Shown here piece after piece: positions 12,394 through 62,005 of a stretch of 64,000 nucleotides of DNA. The translations under genes and the position numbers were made by a program. The number at the start of each line of letters is the position of its first letter. The stretch's first letter is position 1. Location: NCBI RefSeq assembly GCF_018873765.1, contig NC_057918.1, forward strand, positions 11,292,862 through 11,356,861, written 5' to 3'. Source of the stretch: Telopea speciosissima. Taxonomy: Eukaryota > Streptophyta > Magnoliopsida > Proteales > Proteaceae. The notes under the pieces were generated by a model. That model was not told the DNA's origin. It made no database searches and saw nothing but the letters and a program-made list of their open reading frames with translations.

Positions 12394-13182
12394 GTACTCC
12401 CTTCTTCTTCTTCTTCTAATCCCAAACCGTAAGTTCTGCTTGTACAACACATGCATCTTTTTTGTTTTCTTTGTTTCCGTTCCTCCCTTACTGGGTTGGG
12501 GTCTCCATTTCTTCCCATAAATGTGTGTGAAATGGATAATTACCAATCGAAAAACGGAGCTTTTGTTCAAAATAAGGGGTTGCAAACACAGAATTTTTGG
12601 ATTACTAGATCTTCTCTGAATAACTGAAGATTTCTTCTTAGCCTTTTGCTTATTACCCGGAGACCTTTGTTGCCGAACTTTCGTAGTTTAGTGGTTTCTT
12701 TGTCTGTTCTGGATTTTTTCATTTCGTTTTCGTGTTTTTGTTTCTGTGTTCTTTGATGAATTTTGTTGTTCGAAGTGGGATTCCATATCTTTCGGTAAAT
12801 TATTAACTTATATATATTTTTTTCTCTTACCCCTTTTCCTTTGGATAGGTAGTCTTGGATTCGGATCGAGGACGGATGGAAACAGACTAAAGATTGAATT
12901 TTTGTTCAGTTTCTTCATTGGCTTTCCGGATTTCCTGCGATTCTGGAAATCGATGTACAGTTAGGGCTTCTTGATCCTCGGTTGCTTGAAAGATCGCATA
13001 TTTCCTATCCGAAATCGGTTTTTTTATTTTTTATTTATTGTTTCTATTCCGGATGTAGCTCAATCGTTAGGGTTCTATTCTTGACTGATTCGTTGTTGAT
13101 TTCGTTTTGGTGCGGGCGAAAGAGGCATTTGTGCTGGTCGGACTTAAAATTCTACTGCAGTTCCCGGTTGGATTCCGGAGAT

Positions 13183-14685
13183 ATGTTGGAGGGTGGTCGG
13201 TCTTGTCTGATTTCGAGGGGCTTTTCCAGTTCCTGTGAGCAAGAGAGTAATTGGGCTTTCATGCCTTGCCGTCTCATCGAGGTCTCTAATGGCAAGCGTC
13301 ATTTAGAAGGTGAAGAGGAAGAAGAGCTTCGGCAGAGAAAGTTATCCAGGTCATCCGATACTCCTCAAAGAGAAGAAACGACTCGACACCTGCAAATTCT
13401 CTCCTTACCCTCTGAAGACCAATTTGATAGTAAGCTCCATCGTGGGGATCAATCAGATTCAAATTCCCTCACCCAGCCCATTTGCGAGGAAATCTCAAAG
13501 AACTGCCCCCTTGACATGCGTCAGAGAGAGGTAATGTCTAAAAACCGGCATGATTTCTCCAGCTCTCTTGCAGATCAATCCAATGATCCCTCATACTCTT
13601 CTGAAGATCAATCCGGTAGCAGGCGACATAATGGGGATCAATCAGATTTGGATTCCCTTATCCAGCCCATTGGCCGGGACATCTCGATCCATTGCCTCCT
13701 CCGCTGTTCAAGATCTGATTATGGTTCACTGGCCTCACTGAATCGGAGTTTCCGCTCTCTGATTCGAAGTGGGGAGCTTTATAAGCTTAGGAGAAAGAAG
13801 GGTGTGATCGAGCACTGGGTTTATTTCTCTTGCCACTTACTCGAGTGGGAGGCATTTGATCCCATTCGTCGCCGGTGGATGCATTTGCCAAGGATGCCTG
13901 CAAATGAGTGTTTCATGTGGGCTGACAAGGAATCCCTGGCTGTGGGTACAGAGCTTCTGGTATTTGGGAAGGAGGTAACTTCTCAAGTCATATACAGATA
14001 CAGCATATTAACAAACACATGGTCTTCTGGCCTAAAGATGAACGCGCCCAGGTGTTTGTTTGGATCTGCCAGCCTTGGGGAGATCGCGATTCTAGCTGGA
14101 GGTTCTGAATCACAGGGGAAAATCTTGAGTTCAGCAGAGCTCTATAACTCAGAGACTGGAACTTGGGAAACACTCCCAAGCATGAAGAAGGCAAGAAGAA
14201 TGTGTTCTGGGGTATTCATGGATGGGAAATTCTATGTAATTGGGGGAATAAGCGACGATTCAAAAGCACTATCAAGTGGAGAGGAATATGATTTGAAGAG
14301 TAGAAGTTGGCGTGAAATCCCCAACATGTATCCTATACAGAATGGAGCAAATGGAGGAACTGCACCACCTCTGGTTGCAGTTGTACAGAATCAACTGTAC
14401 GCAGCTGATTGTGCAGAGAACGAAGTGAAGAAATACATAAAGGAGAGTAACTCGTGGGTCACCGTCGGGAGATTGCCTGAGCGAGCGGTTTCAATGAATG
14501 GTTGGGGACTTGCATTTAGGGCATGTGGTAGCCAGCTTATTGTTATTGGTGGACCAAGGGCCTTGGCTGGAGGGATTATAGAGCTCAATTCATGGTCACC
14601 AAATGAGGGCCCACCACAGTGGGACCTACTAGCCAGCAAGCATTCACCCAACTTTGTTTATAACTGTGCTGTGATGGGTTGCTGA
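13183..14685 (+). CDS. F-box/kelch-repeat protein, SKIP11 type
   Basis: The 500-residue protein belongs to the plant SKIP11 F-box/kelch group. F-box proteins present substrates to SCF ubiquitin ligases through SKP1/ASK; kelch repeats bind the target. The start at 13183 is chosen because MLEGGRSCLISRGFSSSCEQE is the usual family start; an upstream in-frame ATG (12982) lies in the presumed 5'-UTR intron. The F-box region covers residues 160-205 (CSRSDYGSLASLNRSFRSLI). Kelch motifs follow from about 270 to 460, with GG turns in AILAGG, YVIGG and LIVIGG, and the C-terminus FVYNCAVMGC is typical. Oddity: residues 75-112 (SEDQ...GDQSD..SL.QPI) are repeated at 138-175 with a 63-residue offset, placing a second, degenerate copy of the pre-F-box segment in the N-terminal region. 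The frame is intact and intronless within the coding part. The substrate is unknown. Confidence 0.93.
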   Translation: MLEGGRSCLISRGFSSSCEQESNWAFMPCRLIEVSNGKRHLEGEEEEELRQRKLSRSSDTPQREETTRHLQILSLPSEDQFDSKLHRGDQSDSNSLTQPICEEISKNCPLDMRQREVMSKNRHDFSSSLADQSNDPSYSSEDQSGSRRHNGDQSDLDSLIQPIGRDISIHCLLRCSRSDYGSLASLNRSFRSLIRSGELYKLRRKKGVIEHWVYFSCHLLEWEAFDPIRRRWMHLPRMPANECFMWADKESLAVGTELLVFGKEVTSQVIYRYSILTNTWSSGLKMNAPRCLFGSASLGEIAILAGGSESQGKILSSAELYNSETGTWETLPSMKKARRMCSGVFMDGKFYVIGGISDDSKALSSGEEYDLKSRSWREIPNMYPIQNGANGGTAPPLVAVVQNQLYAADCAENEVKKYIKESNSWVTVGRLPERAVSMNGWGLAFRACGSQLIVIGGPRALAGGIIELNSWSPNEGPPQWDLLASKHSPNFVYNCAVMGC

Positions 14686-28957: not shown

Positions 28958-29470
28958 TTTATTTTTTGGTAAAAAAGGACAAATGTCAAAGACTTCTTGC
29001 CAAGACAAAGCACAAGAAGTCCACACACACCCCGTCTCATCTCCTGGACCCCATCGCATGCTCCAGTTCAATGTCGATGGAGCAAGTCATGGGAATCCGG
29101 GGAGAGCGGGGATTGGAAGGGTTTGCAGGTCCTCTACTAGCTTTTTCGGCTGCTTTGCTATCAACATTGGATCCACTTATGAGCTAGTGGCTGAAGCTCT
29201 GGCCATCTGTCAAGCGCTCTCCTTTGCATTGTGTTGGAATATCAATCGTCTCATTATCGAGGGTGACAACTTACCCCTAATCCAGATCCTCAATCACCAG
29301 GTCACTGCCATTCCATGGAGAATCTAGGCCATTGTCGAAGATTGTTGGTACCTTTCGCAACGTCTTCAAGGGGTGTACTTTACTCACACCTTGAGGGAGG
29401 GGAACGCTCCTGCAGACATCCTAGCCTCCTTGGCTGTAACCTCTAATGCTTCTGCTTTTTGGAACTCCCT
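28958..29470 (+). pseudogene. RNase H domain fragment (RVT_3 / LINE type), broken
   Basis: In the frame of 28983, the translation shows an RNase H fold typical of plant non-LTR retrotransposons and RVT_3 proteins. It has FNVDGASHGNPGRAGIG (first catalytic Asp), ELVAEALAICQAL (Glu), LIIEGDN (Asp), then HTLREGNAPADILASLAV (last Asp). One in-frame TAG at 29325-29327 splits the domain; the frame resumes without a shift. No reverse transcriptase is present. The fragment lies exactly between 16-bp direct repeats (GGTTAAATTGCTAGTT at 28942-28957 and 29471-29486), as expected for a target duplication, though no poly(A) precedes the right copy. It is probably dead unless the stop is read through. Confidence 0.75.
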
Positions 29471-34755: not shown

Positions 34756-34914
34756 AATCATTAGTTCAATTGATTTAAAATTAAGTAGTGAGTATGATCA
34801 CCAAGCAGTAACACACTGGTCGTGAAATATGCTTAATCATTAGTTCAATTGATTTAAAATTAAGCAGTGAGTATGATCACCAAGCAGTAACACACTGGTC
34901 GTGAAATATGCTTA
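34756..34914 (+). repeat. Near-identical tandem duplication, 79-bp unit
   Basis: Two copies (34756-34834, 34835-34914) begin AATCATTAGTTCAATTG and end AAATATGCTTAA, and differ at only one or two positions. This indicates a recent event. Confidence 0.9.
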
Positions 34915-35194
34915 AGCATAACTTGATCCTACAGGACTCAAAAATTTGTATGAACTTGAAATGCTTTAGCTGGGCTTGAAAGACAAGTTCTCATGATATT
35001 TGAATTAAGTGTTGTGTTAAAACGGGATAGTTGGTAGAAATCAAAACTGAAACATTTATTAAACAATTTTGGTTTCTTAATTTATAAATGGTTTCAATTT
35101 TGGTCCCCGTTTGTTATGGGTTTGAGGGAATAGATTCATAAATGGTCCTTAAACTGTTTCAGCCTCGGTTTTATAGCTCTAGAACTCACAAGAC

Positions 35195-37567: not shown

Positions 37568-38039
37568 AATAGAGGGAACTGTCTTTCTACGATTCCTTAA
37601 TACCCATCCGAGCATAATGTCCCATTCACCGTAGCTTGAGGAAAAACTCAGTCCTAAACAAAATTCGAAACTCTTCTTTTTGTTAAGAAATCTTTAAATA
37701 ATACCTCTAAACAGCAAAAGATATTTCTTTTTGTTAAGAAATCTTAAAAAAACCATTGCGTTAATTTTGTAATAATGCCTCTAAACAACAAAAGACATTT
37801 AGAATTTTTTTGTAACACTAGAAGCATAACTAACATACATAAATTTAGTATGTAATACATAGTAGAAATTTAGCCCTTATCTACTAGATAAGAGTATCGA
37901 ATAAAAAAAGTAAAAAATTACAAAGTAAGAACTAAAAGTCGGTATGCCATTGAGATAACATACTTTTAGAAGAAGGATGGCCAGGGAGATGGAAACACAC
38001 CAAGGAAGAGGAAAGGAAACCTTTACTTACAAATCAGAG

Positions 38040-38245
38040 TTGAAAAACTAGGTTTTCACTCATACAAGTCACCTAATAAGTAAAAAAACACATGAAACCT
38101 AGTCAAGAGTCATGAAGATTCGCCCAAGTTTGAGTTGGTCCGAGTTTTCTATTTTCATTGACTTGGTGTTTTTGCCCAATTATATGAAATGCACCGAGTA
38201 TGATTTTTCTTATTGAGTCATATACTATTCATAGACCATAAATTT
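38040..38245 (+). repeat. Dispersed repeat R1, copy B, left part
   Basis: Matches the first half of copy A (20395-20825): GAGTCATGAAGA, GACTTGGTGTTTTTGCCC, ACTATTCATAGACCATAAATTT. It is cut by the Pack-MULE and resumes at 39814. Confidence 0.7.
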
Positions 38246-38540
38246 GGATTCGGCTCCTGTCCTGCCATGGCGGGAGCTGGATCGTCCAGCACCCCCCCCA
38301 GATCTTGCCACGTGGACAGGAGACAATCGAACGGTTTTTGCTTCTCTTTGCCTTACTTTAACCCATTTGTAATATTCGTCCTCTCTCACCCTGTTTAACC
38401 CGACCCGTTTAGTTTTGGAATTTTAGAAACCTAAACGAAGTAAAACCCCTTTCGTCTCCCACTTTTCGTTCTTCCCTCTCTATTTCCTCCGTCCAACCTC
38501 GCGACGAACCCTAGCCAGCGGCGACACCTCATCTCTCTGC
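38246..38540 (+). repeat. Left terminal inverted repeat of the Pack-MULE
   Basis: Matches the reverse complement of 39519-39813 over its whole length with scattered substitutions and one single-base indel. It contains CCACGTGG and CGACCCGTTTAG words, so it may carry promoter activity. Confidence 0.9.
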
Positions 38541-38757
38541 GACTAACGGCGGCGAGCGACGAACGGCAACGACTGACCTCGCGACGTGGAGAAGGGTTCA
38601 TCCAATCACCGTCAGTCCCGAGAGAGAGAGAGGTGGAGGTGGTGGTGGTGGGGAGGGGGGGAGTTTTCCTCCAGCCGTGGAGAAGGGTTCACATCCAATC
38701 ACCGTCAGTCCCACGGTCAAGGAAGTCCTTCACCGTGGGTGAAGGGAAACTGAGTTC

Positions 38758-38764
38758 TATAAAT
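38758..38764 (+). promoter_or_regulatory. TATA box of the captured neprosin fragment
   Basis: TATAAAT lies about 100 bases upstream of the start codon at 38863, inside the captured interior. The promoter therefore appears to have been acquired along with the exons. A partly duplicated GAGAAGGGTTCA...CCAATCACCGTCAGTCCC block precedes it (38588 and 38680). Confidence 0.55.
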
Positions 38765-38862
38765 CCTCTCGTTTCAATGGCAGGGTGAGATAGAGTGAGC
38801 GAGAGAACAGGAGGAAGTTCCTTCACCCTGGTGTAGTAGTGTTTCATTCCTTGGTGTTCACC

Positions 38863-39529
38863 ATGGCAGCTTGGGTTAGCGGAGAGAGCAGGAGTAAGCG
38901 AGTAAGTGTGCTGCTATTCCTCATATCCTTTTACTTGATGGCTCTGATCCCCTTCTCATGTTCTGCTGCTGGGATGCCCAATTCCCGTCAAAAGCTCGAA
39001 ATTCAGAACCACTTGAAACGCCTCAACAAGCCCGCCGTTGAAAGCATTAAGGTTCTCTCGCGATTTTTCATTTTATGTTCATTAATGAGTGGAAAATCCA
39101 ATCTTTTCGGCTTATGAGTGCTGAGGATTATTAGATTTTTCTTGTACATTTCAATTCTGTGTTTCAATTCGGTGGTGACAGAGCCCAGATGGAGATATCA
39201 TTGATTGCGTCCATACTTCTAATCAACCTGCATTCGACCATCCTTCTCTCAAAAACCATACAATTCAGGTTCTTCCCTGTTTCTGCTCTCCTCAACTTCT
39301 GGTCTTGGTTGCTATACTTGATATTTATTTATTTATTTTTTCCTGGGTTTTTCAGACGAGACCTAGTTTTCATCCAGAAGGGCTTTTCGACAAAAACAAA
39401 ACCACTACCAAGTCCGAACAAAGTTCAAACTTCATTACTCAGTTGTGGCACTTGAGTGGAAGATGCCCTGAAGGAACCATACCCATCAGAAGAACAACCA
39501 AAGATGATATTCTAAGAGCAGAGAGATGA
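38863..39529 (+). CDS. Neprosin-type protease fragment: signal peptide plus activation peptide only
   Basis: Three exons (38863-39051, 39182-39268, 39356-39529), all phase 0 with GT-AG introns, give 149 residues. Residues 18-36 (VSVLLFLISFYLMALIPFS) are a signal-peptide core. QKLEIQNHLKRLNKPAVESI, SPDGDIIDCVHTSNQPAFDHP, RPSFHPEGL and ITQLWHLSGRCPEGTIPIRR are hallmark motifs of the activation-peptide domain that precedes the neprosin glutamic-peptidase domain. That catalytic domain (about 200 more residues in the family) is absent: after DDILRA the frame enters the right inverted repeat, which supplies E-R-stop. The start has good context (CACCATGGC). No stop or shift breaks the captured exons. 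It may be a transcribed chimera encoding a secreted propeptide, or a non-coding relic; expression is unknown. Confidence 0.8.
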
Positions 39530-39813
39530 AGTGTCGCCGCTGGCTAGGGTTCGTCGCTAGGTTGGACGGAGAAAATTGGGAGGGAAGAACGAAAAGTGGG
39601 AGACGAAAGGGGTTTTACTTCGTTTAGGTTTCTAAAATTCCAAAACTAAACGGGTCGGGTTAAACAGGGTGAGAGAGGACGAATATTACAAATGGGTTAA
39701 AAGTAAGGCAAGGAGAAGCAAAAACCGTTCGATTGTCTCCTGTCCACGTGGCAAGATCTGTGGGAGGTGCTGGACGATCCAGCTCCCGCCACAGCAGGAC
39801 AGGAGTCGAATCC
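39519..39813 (-). repeat. Right terminal inverted repeat of the Pack-MULE
   Basis: Inverted partner of 38246-38540. Its first bases (GCAGAGAGATGA) provide the last residues and the stop codon of the captured reading frame. Confidence 0.9.
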
Positions 39814-40045
39814 CATAAATTTGGCCTGCAACTAAACAAAATCTTAGATTTTTTGTTCAATGTCTTCAATATTAGCCTCATTTTTTTCTTCTCATCTATG
39901 AAGCAACCATAGCCTCAGTCCCTCTTCGTTCAAAGGAGAAGAGGGAGTTATTAAAAATAATAAGAAAAATAATGATTCACCTTGGCCAAGTTTGATTCAC
40001 CCAGAGTCACCAAGTTATGAAAAGTGCAAGTCGAGAAAAAAATCT
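39814..40045 (+). repeat. Dispersed repeat R1, copy B, right part
   Basis: Continues from CATAAATTTGG through GCAACTAAACAAAA, AAGCAACCATAGCCTCA and CACCAAGTTATGAAAAGTG, in the same order as copy A. Confidence 0.7.
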
Positions 40046-40817
40046 GATTTTTCCAACTAAACTACATGGCCCATTATGAATCGAAATTTTCCCTTTGTAT
40101 TTTCTAAGTTGTAATGTTTAGTTTTGAATAGAATCCAAAGATTGGGACATTTATGTATGGAAAAAGTTTCTCTAAACCGCTATGGTACAATAGACTAGCA
40201 CCTATGTGTCTTATCTCTTTCCTCCTCAATTGAAATGATCTCGCCCTCCAATATATGATATTGTTTTGCGGTACCTCATTGGTGCGCACCTCTATGTTGC
40301 TTGCTCAAAAAACGCTCTTCCTAAGGAGTATCTATAGTCCGACAACAAGCTTTTTCACATGGAAAGATTATATTGCAATTTCAACCGTATGGATAAAGTT
40401 TAAATCATAAATAATACATGGAAGTTGTTTTGGCAAAAAAAAAAAAACGATTCTAAATTGGTTTGGAAATTTAGAAAAAAGAAATTCATTAATTTTTTAG
40501 TCCCTTGATAGTTCACAAATAATTCGGAAAACAAACAATTCAGCCCACAAAATTTGGACTCCGAAATTTTGGAACCCCCAAGCCCCGCCCCCGCCCCCCC
40601 TCTCCCGGCAAAATAAAAAAGCACAAGCCCTTCCCCCTTAAATAAAAATCCCACCCATGTTGGTGGAGAAGCTACACAATTAGACAACGTTTGAGAGAGA
40701 GAGAGAGAGGCTACACAACCAAACAATGTTCGAGAGAGAGAAAATCTTGTTGTAACCAACGTGAAGAAAAAACATTATAACTTTACAATTTTACCTTTTA
40801 GTCTAACACTTTTGGGA

Positions 40818-45400: not shown

Positions 45401-45409
45401 AACTTGATG

Positions 45410-45490
45410 GGTCTTTAGCTCAAATTGGTAGAGCACTTGGAACATGAGTATGTTCTACGAGGATGGTGGTTCGAGTCTACCAAGGCCCTC
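45410..45490 (+). other. tRNA-like sequence with an extended anticodon arm
   Basis: GGGTCTT at 45410 pairs with AAGGCCC near 45482 as a 7-bp acceptor stem (one G-T). GCTC/GAGC forms a D stem inside TAGCTCAAATTGGTAGAGC, and GGTGG-TTCGAGT-CTACC forms a T arm. Between D and T arms there are 29 bases instead of about 22. They fold as GAACAT-GAGT-ATGTTC extended by CTTG/CGAG, leaving no seven-base anticodon loop. It cannot be an ordinary tRNA. It may be a pseudogene or the head of a SINE; no SINE body is recognised. Confidence 0.45.
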
Positions 45491-51168: not shown

Positions 51169-60629
<9,461 letters not shown>

Positions 60630-61534: not shown

Positions 61535-62005
61535 CCATATTGGAAAACCAAGTTTTTTTACTCAACTCGTCCTTTTCAAAACCTAGTGAGTCAAGCGATC
61601 TAAACTTGGTCAAGGTGACTCATGTTTTTTTTTCTTTTTTCTTTTATAATTTCCCTTCTTTTCTTTTTCTAAGTAAAGAGGGACTAAGCATATGGTTGCT
61701 TCATAAGCGACAAAAAAAAAAAAAATAGGGGAGGCTATTATTGAAGACAATGAACAAAAATTATTGGGTTTTGTTTAGTTGTAGACCAAGCTTATGGTCT
61801 ATCGATAGTATATGGCCCAATAAAAAAGAAAAGACTTGGTGAGTATCATATTACTCAAACCAAAACACCGAGTCAATAAAAAATCGAAATAACTTGGATA
61901 TGGTCTAGTCATTTCTTAAACTTGCTTCTAACCAAGTTTCATGTGTTTTAACTCAACTCAAATGACTCCCCCAAGTTAAAACAAGGTTTTCCAACCATGA
62001 CTTAA
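61535..62005 (-). repeat. Dispersed repeat R1, copy C (uninterrupted, inverted)
   Basis: On the minus strand the order of copy A is found: TTTTTATTGACTCGGTGTTT, GGGCCATATACTATCGATAG, ACCATAAGCTTGGTCTACAA, CTAAACAAAACCC and AAGCAACCATATGC. It is intact across the position where copy B carries the Pack-MULE. Confidence 0.65.

Follow-up and report, generated by a model that had tools for sequence, protein, structure and literature searches.

Results

An element enclosing part of a neprosin-type gene

The window, a stretch of DNA of 64,000 nucleotides, contains at positions 38246–39813 a 1568-bp element bounded by long terminal inverted repeats (TIRs), flanked by a 9-bp target-site duplication (TSD) and enclosing the 5′ part of a neprosin-type gene. 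The features are listed below in window coordinates; C10 denotes contig 10, P1 is one of three neprosin-type genes on it, and L018–L021 are other elements of the genome.

38034–38245, plus strand: older repeat, left part (insertion target)
38237–38245, no strand: left TSD, CATAAATTT, present once (at most 2 changes) in five related empty sites
38246–38540, plus strand: left TIR, from alignment with the right TIR
38541–38585, plus strand: MULE subterminal sequence; up to element position 341 it matches L018, L019, L020 and L021, and has no match in the neprosin genes
38586–39520, plus strand: captured piece of a neprosin-type gene, from its upstream DNA into exon 3; element 340–1275 matches P1, left edge approximate
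38758–38764, plus strand: TATAAAT box, in all three C10 genes; putative promoter
38863–39051, plus strand: exon 1, with start codon (ATG at 38863) and signal-peptide-like region
39052–39181, plus strand: intron 1, GT-AG, retained; same intron in the C10 genes
39182–39268, plus strand: exon 2
39269–39355, plus strand: intron 2, GT-AG, retained; same intron in the C10 genes
39356–39529, plus strand: exon 3, ending in a TGA (39527–39529) supplied by the right TIR
39518–39813, minus strand: right TIR; at the junction, 3 bp (GCA) are common to it and the captured DNA
39814–39822, no strand: right TSD, CATAAATTT, an exact repeat of the left duplication
39823–40059, plus strand: older repeat, right part (insertion target)

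Elsewhere, the window holds a Kelch-repeat protein gene (12982–14685; 567-codon frame), an exon of a ribosomal protein S4/S9-type gene (59836–60297, minus strand), an RVT_3 (reverse transcriptase-like) fragment that is probably retroelement-derived (28983–29324), and a tandem repeat with a 79-bp unit (34756–34919; 2.1 copies, 97% matches). A tRNA-like call at 45409–45490, obtained under the bacterial setting and with the anticodon undetermined, is probably spurious, and no RNA family reached its gathering score in the 64-kb window (Rfam).

Alignment of the TIR pair (38246–38540 and 39518–39813) gave 95.9% identity over 296 columns, in agreement with the inverted repeats of roughly 295 bp described in an earlier note on this DNA; the perfect 9-bp duplication of that note was likewise found, with CATAAATTT directly abutting both TIRs. 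Sequence comparison identified element positions 1–341 as ends plus subterminal sequence common to other elements of the genome. No frame of at least 100 codons was found within the element and its spliced product matched only PF14365, so that the element is without a transposase of its own.

The cargo of about 935 bp has three exons separated by two introns, preceded by a putative core promoter, and encodes a signal-peptide-like region and most of the activation peptide. We located the claimed TATA box (38758–38764), start codon (ATG at 38863), three in-frame exons and intact introns. The exons (38863–39051, 39182–39268 and 39356–39529) form one 149-codon frame, which enters the right repeat for three codons and then stops at 39527–39529; because the first of these codons (GCA) is common to the donor-like genes, the repeat is the sole source of just two codons and the stop, as the earlier note had proposed. 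Internal direct repeats of the element are also present upstream of P1, and thus probably arrived with the cargo.

The encoded product and its truncated prodomain

The 149-codon product matched the Pfam family Neprosin_AP (PF14365; E 1e-38) over profile positions 1–86 of 120, confirming the claimed activation-peptide identity, whereas the three C10 genes matched this profile further, up to positions 110–115. The peptidase domain (PF03080), claimed to be missing, gave no hit in the 149-aa product with E values up to 0.001. The description of the prodomain as complete-looking did not hold, since the match stops at profile position 86 and most of the inhibitory linker is gone.

In the solved structure of pro-neprosin, the pro-domain linker sits in the active-site cleft, Lys118 acts as the latency plug, and cleavage occurs at Pro128-Ser129 (PMC9343461). 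Product residues 46–139 align to chain residues 26–108 of this structure (7zu8), and counting the remaining ten residues gap-free places the product end at about position 118 (7zu8 numbering), at an arginine. About the last ten pro-domain residues would therefore be missing, including the cleavage site, and the plug position would be at best the final residue. As judged from this alignment, the prodomain core is present and the inhibitory tail is not intact.

Insertion into an older dispersed repeat

We joined the flanks without the element and without one duplication, and used this empty-site query to search the genome assembly of Telopea speciosissima (822.9 Mb, 1287 contigs). The joined flanks gave 39 non-self matches at 70–88% identity, 38 of which span the joint (40 of 368 candidates scored). 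All five empty sites that were fetched and aligned run through the joint without the element and contain a single site resembling CATAAATTT, with at most two changes. Since these matches span the joint without the element, the element sits inside an older repeat, which is dispersed, measures about 450 bp or more, and has a further member at window 61540–61882.

Copies of the element at three genomic places

At least three full copies were found on three contigs, C3 (the window copy), C1 and C2 (40 of 411 candidates scored). The two copies beyond the window are 95% and 93% identical to the window copy, which speaks against a chance arrangement, and the same junctions recur at all three loci. 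Exact 9-bp TSDs flank the C3 and C1 copies; the C2 copy is without a TSD, which we count against the Pack-MULE account. The fetched flanks of the three copies have just two short matches in common (56 and 36 bp). Segmental duplication was considered as the origin of the three copies and rejected on the basis of these flanks.

The window copy keeps the TATA box, start codon, splice sites and frame, encoding 149 residues. If spliced alike, the C1 copy, from whose 3′ junction 5 bp are missing, would have a frame running into the TIR (180 residues in total), and the C2 copy, in which a 25-bp deletion shifts the frame within exon 1, would encode 84 residues. The three cargos differ from one another by K2P distances of 0.010–0.018 over the part that starts at the TATA box.

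Donor-like neprosin genes on contig 10

A genome search for the parental neprosin gene, run along the lines suggested in the earlier note, revealed three related genes on contig 10, diverged from the cargo by about 5–8%. These genes, at C10:58443159, 58453684 and 58468020, show 89–93% identity to the cargo with introns included, and each has PF03080 (peptidase-domain) hits downstream; from the TATA box on, and gaps aside, the cargo is about 92–95% identical to them. They share both the introns and the upstream DNA of the cargo, which bears out the claim of capture at the DNA level with introns retained. The upstream match is longest in P1 (to element position 340) and shorter in P2 (412) and P3 (501).

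K2P distances from the TATA box on were 0.053–0.079 between cargo and C10 genes, and 0.058–0.068 among the C10 genes themselves. The cargo is thus about as far from each of these genes as they are from each other, and the lack of a close donor counts against the Pack-MULE account; no gene closer to the cargo than the C10 trio was present among the matches listed (40 of 411 candidates scored). The fetched C10 stretches are free of N. In an unrooted tree, the three cargos attach where P2 parts from P1 and P3. Judging by this tree, the donor may have been a fourth gene, lost or unassembled, or the capture may be an old one from the ancestor of one C10 lineage.

The TIR family and its transposase-bearing relatives

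We also counted other copies of the TIR, a check that the earlier note had named. The search, in which 40 of 411 candidates were scored, listed at least 103 matches, and many of these are TIRs occurring in pairs. Ten of the 15 family elements examined for TSDs have an exact duplication of 9 bp (all but the C2 copy, L017, L020, L022/L023 and L051; L027 and L050, with one or both ends unlocated, are excluded from these counts).

Two larger elements have related TIRs and transposase domains. L049 (9.5 kb; exact 9-bp TSD, ACTCATAAT) contains FAR1, SWIM and MULE domains, the last at 26.0 bits and so just below the cut-off of 27.6, and L051 (9.3 kb) contains a MULE domain above the cut-off. Their TIRs are 69–74% identical to those of the window element across about 190–280 bp. 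From these related ends we infer that the mobilising transposase would come from FAR1-type MULEs; with TIR identity at just 69–74%, L049 and L051 may not be the actual helpers.

L017 matches the TIRs at 94–98% (the right one over just 158 bp) and carries a piece of a PP2C gene (PF00481, 1.5e-14); outside L017, this piece has its best match at a locus on C2 (94%). A neprosin-type piece and a PP2C piece within one TIR family indicate captures from two or more unrelated genes. The element, at L017:2093–3666 (G000:C5:58294792–58296365), has no exact 9-bp TSD, and its PP2C piece is a 3′ piece in reverse orientation. A further member, L018:1028–9396 (G000:C11:8295827–8304195), is an 8.4-kb element with an exact 9-bp TSD and TIRs 84–88% identical to those of the window element; it contains an apparent Copia-type retrotransposon coding region (translation read by eye).

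Substitutions in cargo and TIRs

Since the copies separated, the exons have accumulated 7 replacement and 2 silent changes, with 75% replacement expected without selection (the automated count was 7 replacement and 1 silent; the ninth change, silent in C1, falls at codon 7, a three-state site, and was scored by eye). With just 9 exon substitutions to test, no purifying selection was detected on the cargo. The C10 genes show 18 replacement to 9 silent changes, and the ratio in the copies versus these genes does not differ significantly (Fisher p 0.39). The common stem of the three copies carries 2 replacement and 5 silent changes, which would allow some constraint after capture, if capture preceded that stretch. 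The private exon changes of the window copy are all replacements (3/3).

The TIRs have diverged more than the cargo in all three copy pairs, by factors of about 3.4, 1.8 and 2.9 (p 0.002, 0.10 and 0.005, respectively). This slower divergence of the cargo is not explained by neutral decay alone, and counts against a neutral account. Substitutions numbered 9 in 436 exon columns, 6 in 227 intron columns and 0 in 118 columns of the TATA region and leader; because the introns share the slower rate, the slower divergence is no pointer to selection on a protein. CpG decay was considered as the cause of the faster TIR divergence and is insufficient on its own.

Discussion

The Pack-MULE class was reportedly described by Jiang et al. 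in 2004. Gene capture by such elements is biased towards the 5′ ends of genes. The element at 38246–39813 is almost certainly a non-autonomous Pack-MULE that carries a neprosin-type 5′ cargo and spread to at least three places, probably via a FAR1-type MULE transposase. Its structure, insertion, copies and gene origin are matters of direct observation, and what we found in it is what characterises the class: TIR length, 9-bp TSD, related transposase elements, non-autonomy, a host-gene fragment and mobility. The earlier note had read the locus in the same way, and the TIRs, the TSD, the dispersed copies, the empty sites, the donor-like genes and the transposase-bearing relatives all bear this reading out. 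As to its history, a non-autonomous element with 296-bp TIRs would have taken up, as DNA, about 935 bp of the 5′ portion of a neprosin-type relative of the C10 genes. Transposition would then have brought the element to at least three genomic places; in the window it landed within an older repeat of about 450 bp and duplicated CATAAATTT. The transposase would have come from FAR1-type MULEs whose ends are related to its own.

The intact upstream region and introns would suit a resident neprosin gene whose 3′ half was lost and which came to be flanked by repeats later. The identical junctions at three loci on three contigs, the flanking repeat found elsewhere without the insert and the exact 9-bp TSD, however, leave this alternative with virtually no probability. 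With the Pack-MULE reading retained, it can be asked whether its cargo does anything. According to PMC13317346, such fragments usually have no function, yet many of them are expressed and bear signs of selection. The copies might act as RNA, with small RNAs from the TIR-flanked cargo dampening the parental neprosin genes; the cargo lies between inverted repeats and, starting at the TATA box, shares about 92–95% identity with the C10 genes, and maize elements with captured gene pieces, Pack-MULEs included, are reported as siRNA reservoirs (PMC13317346). We consider this action unlikely.

It is very unlikely that the cargo is a working new gene, whose secreted, truncated prodomain would bind neprosins in trans as a decoy inhibitor or folding helper. 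The retained TATA box, start, splice sites and frame of the window copy speak for such a gene, as do the tight interface between pro-domain and catalytic domain in solved pro-neprosin (PMC9343461), the lower divergence of cargo than TIRs in 3/3 pairs (p < 0.01 in 2/3) and the 2:5 ratio on the stem. Against these stand the frameshifting 25-bp deletion in C2 and the 5 bp lost at the 3′ junction of C1, the replacement nature of all three window-private exon changes, exons (9/436 columns) that are not clearly slower than introns (6/227), and the loss of most of the linker, cleavage site Pro128-Ser129 included. For the window copy in particular, expression and secretion of a plug-less neprosin prodomain core acting in trans on the plant's neprosins is extremely unlikely; if true, its product would be a transposon-made zymogen regulator. 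Frame losses and substitutions together suggest that the cargo of the Pack-MULE is now most likely neutral.

The earlier note had called the combination of promoter, signal peptide and prodomain in one mobile cassette unusual. This part of the note does not stand, as multi-copy Pack-MULEs are documented, the sister element L017 carries part of a PP2C gene, and neprosin fragments have been published for a CACTA element (PMC8978399). The general view of these elements is unchanged unless the cargo proves expressed. The locus is a clean Pack-MULE case, for which a single assembly shows the donor-like genes, the other copies, the empty sites and relatives that encode transposase.

Pack-MULEs have been counted in rice, maize, Arabidopsis and tomato, with TIRs typically of 100–500 bp and TSDs of 9–11 bp (PMC3310237). 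The window element resembles those of these four plants in being non-autonomous, in its long TIRs, 9-bp TSD and host-gene fragment, and in having parental genes elsewhere and several copies, and differs from them in its host lineage, Proteaceae, and in the neprosin-type nature of the captured gene. The tomato PM-ZIBP family, as presented in PMC3310237, is likewise a gene-fragment MULE amplified to several copies, and is similarly small (944–1372 bp among the rows listed there, 1568 bp here), with TSDs of 9–10 bp in these rows; PM-ZIBP has tandem TIRs in 13 of 14 copies, whereas the window element has one pair. A CACTA-like element of Chenopodium vulvaria is also a DNA transposon with captured neprosin fragments, PF14365 included (PMC8978399). 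Unlike the window element, it belongs to the CACTA superfamily and contains parts of the peptidase domain as well as of the activation peptide, called a nonfunctional exon in that source. Beside these systems, the window element adds a well-supported Proteaceae case beyond rice, maize, tomato and Arabidopsis.
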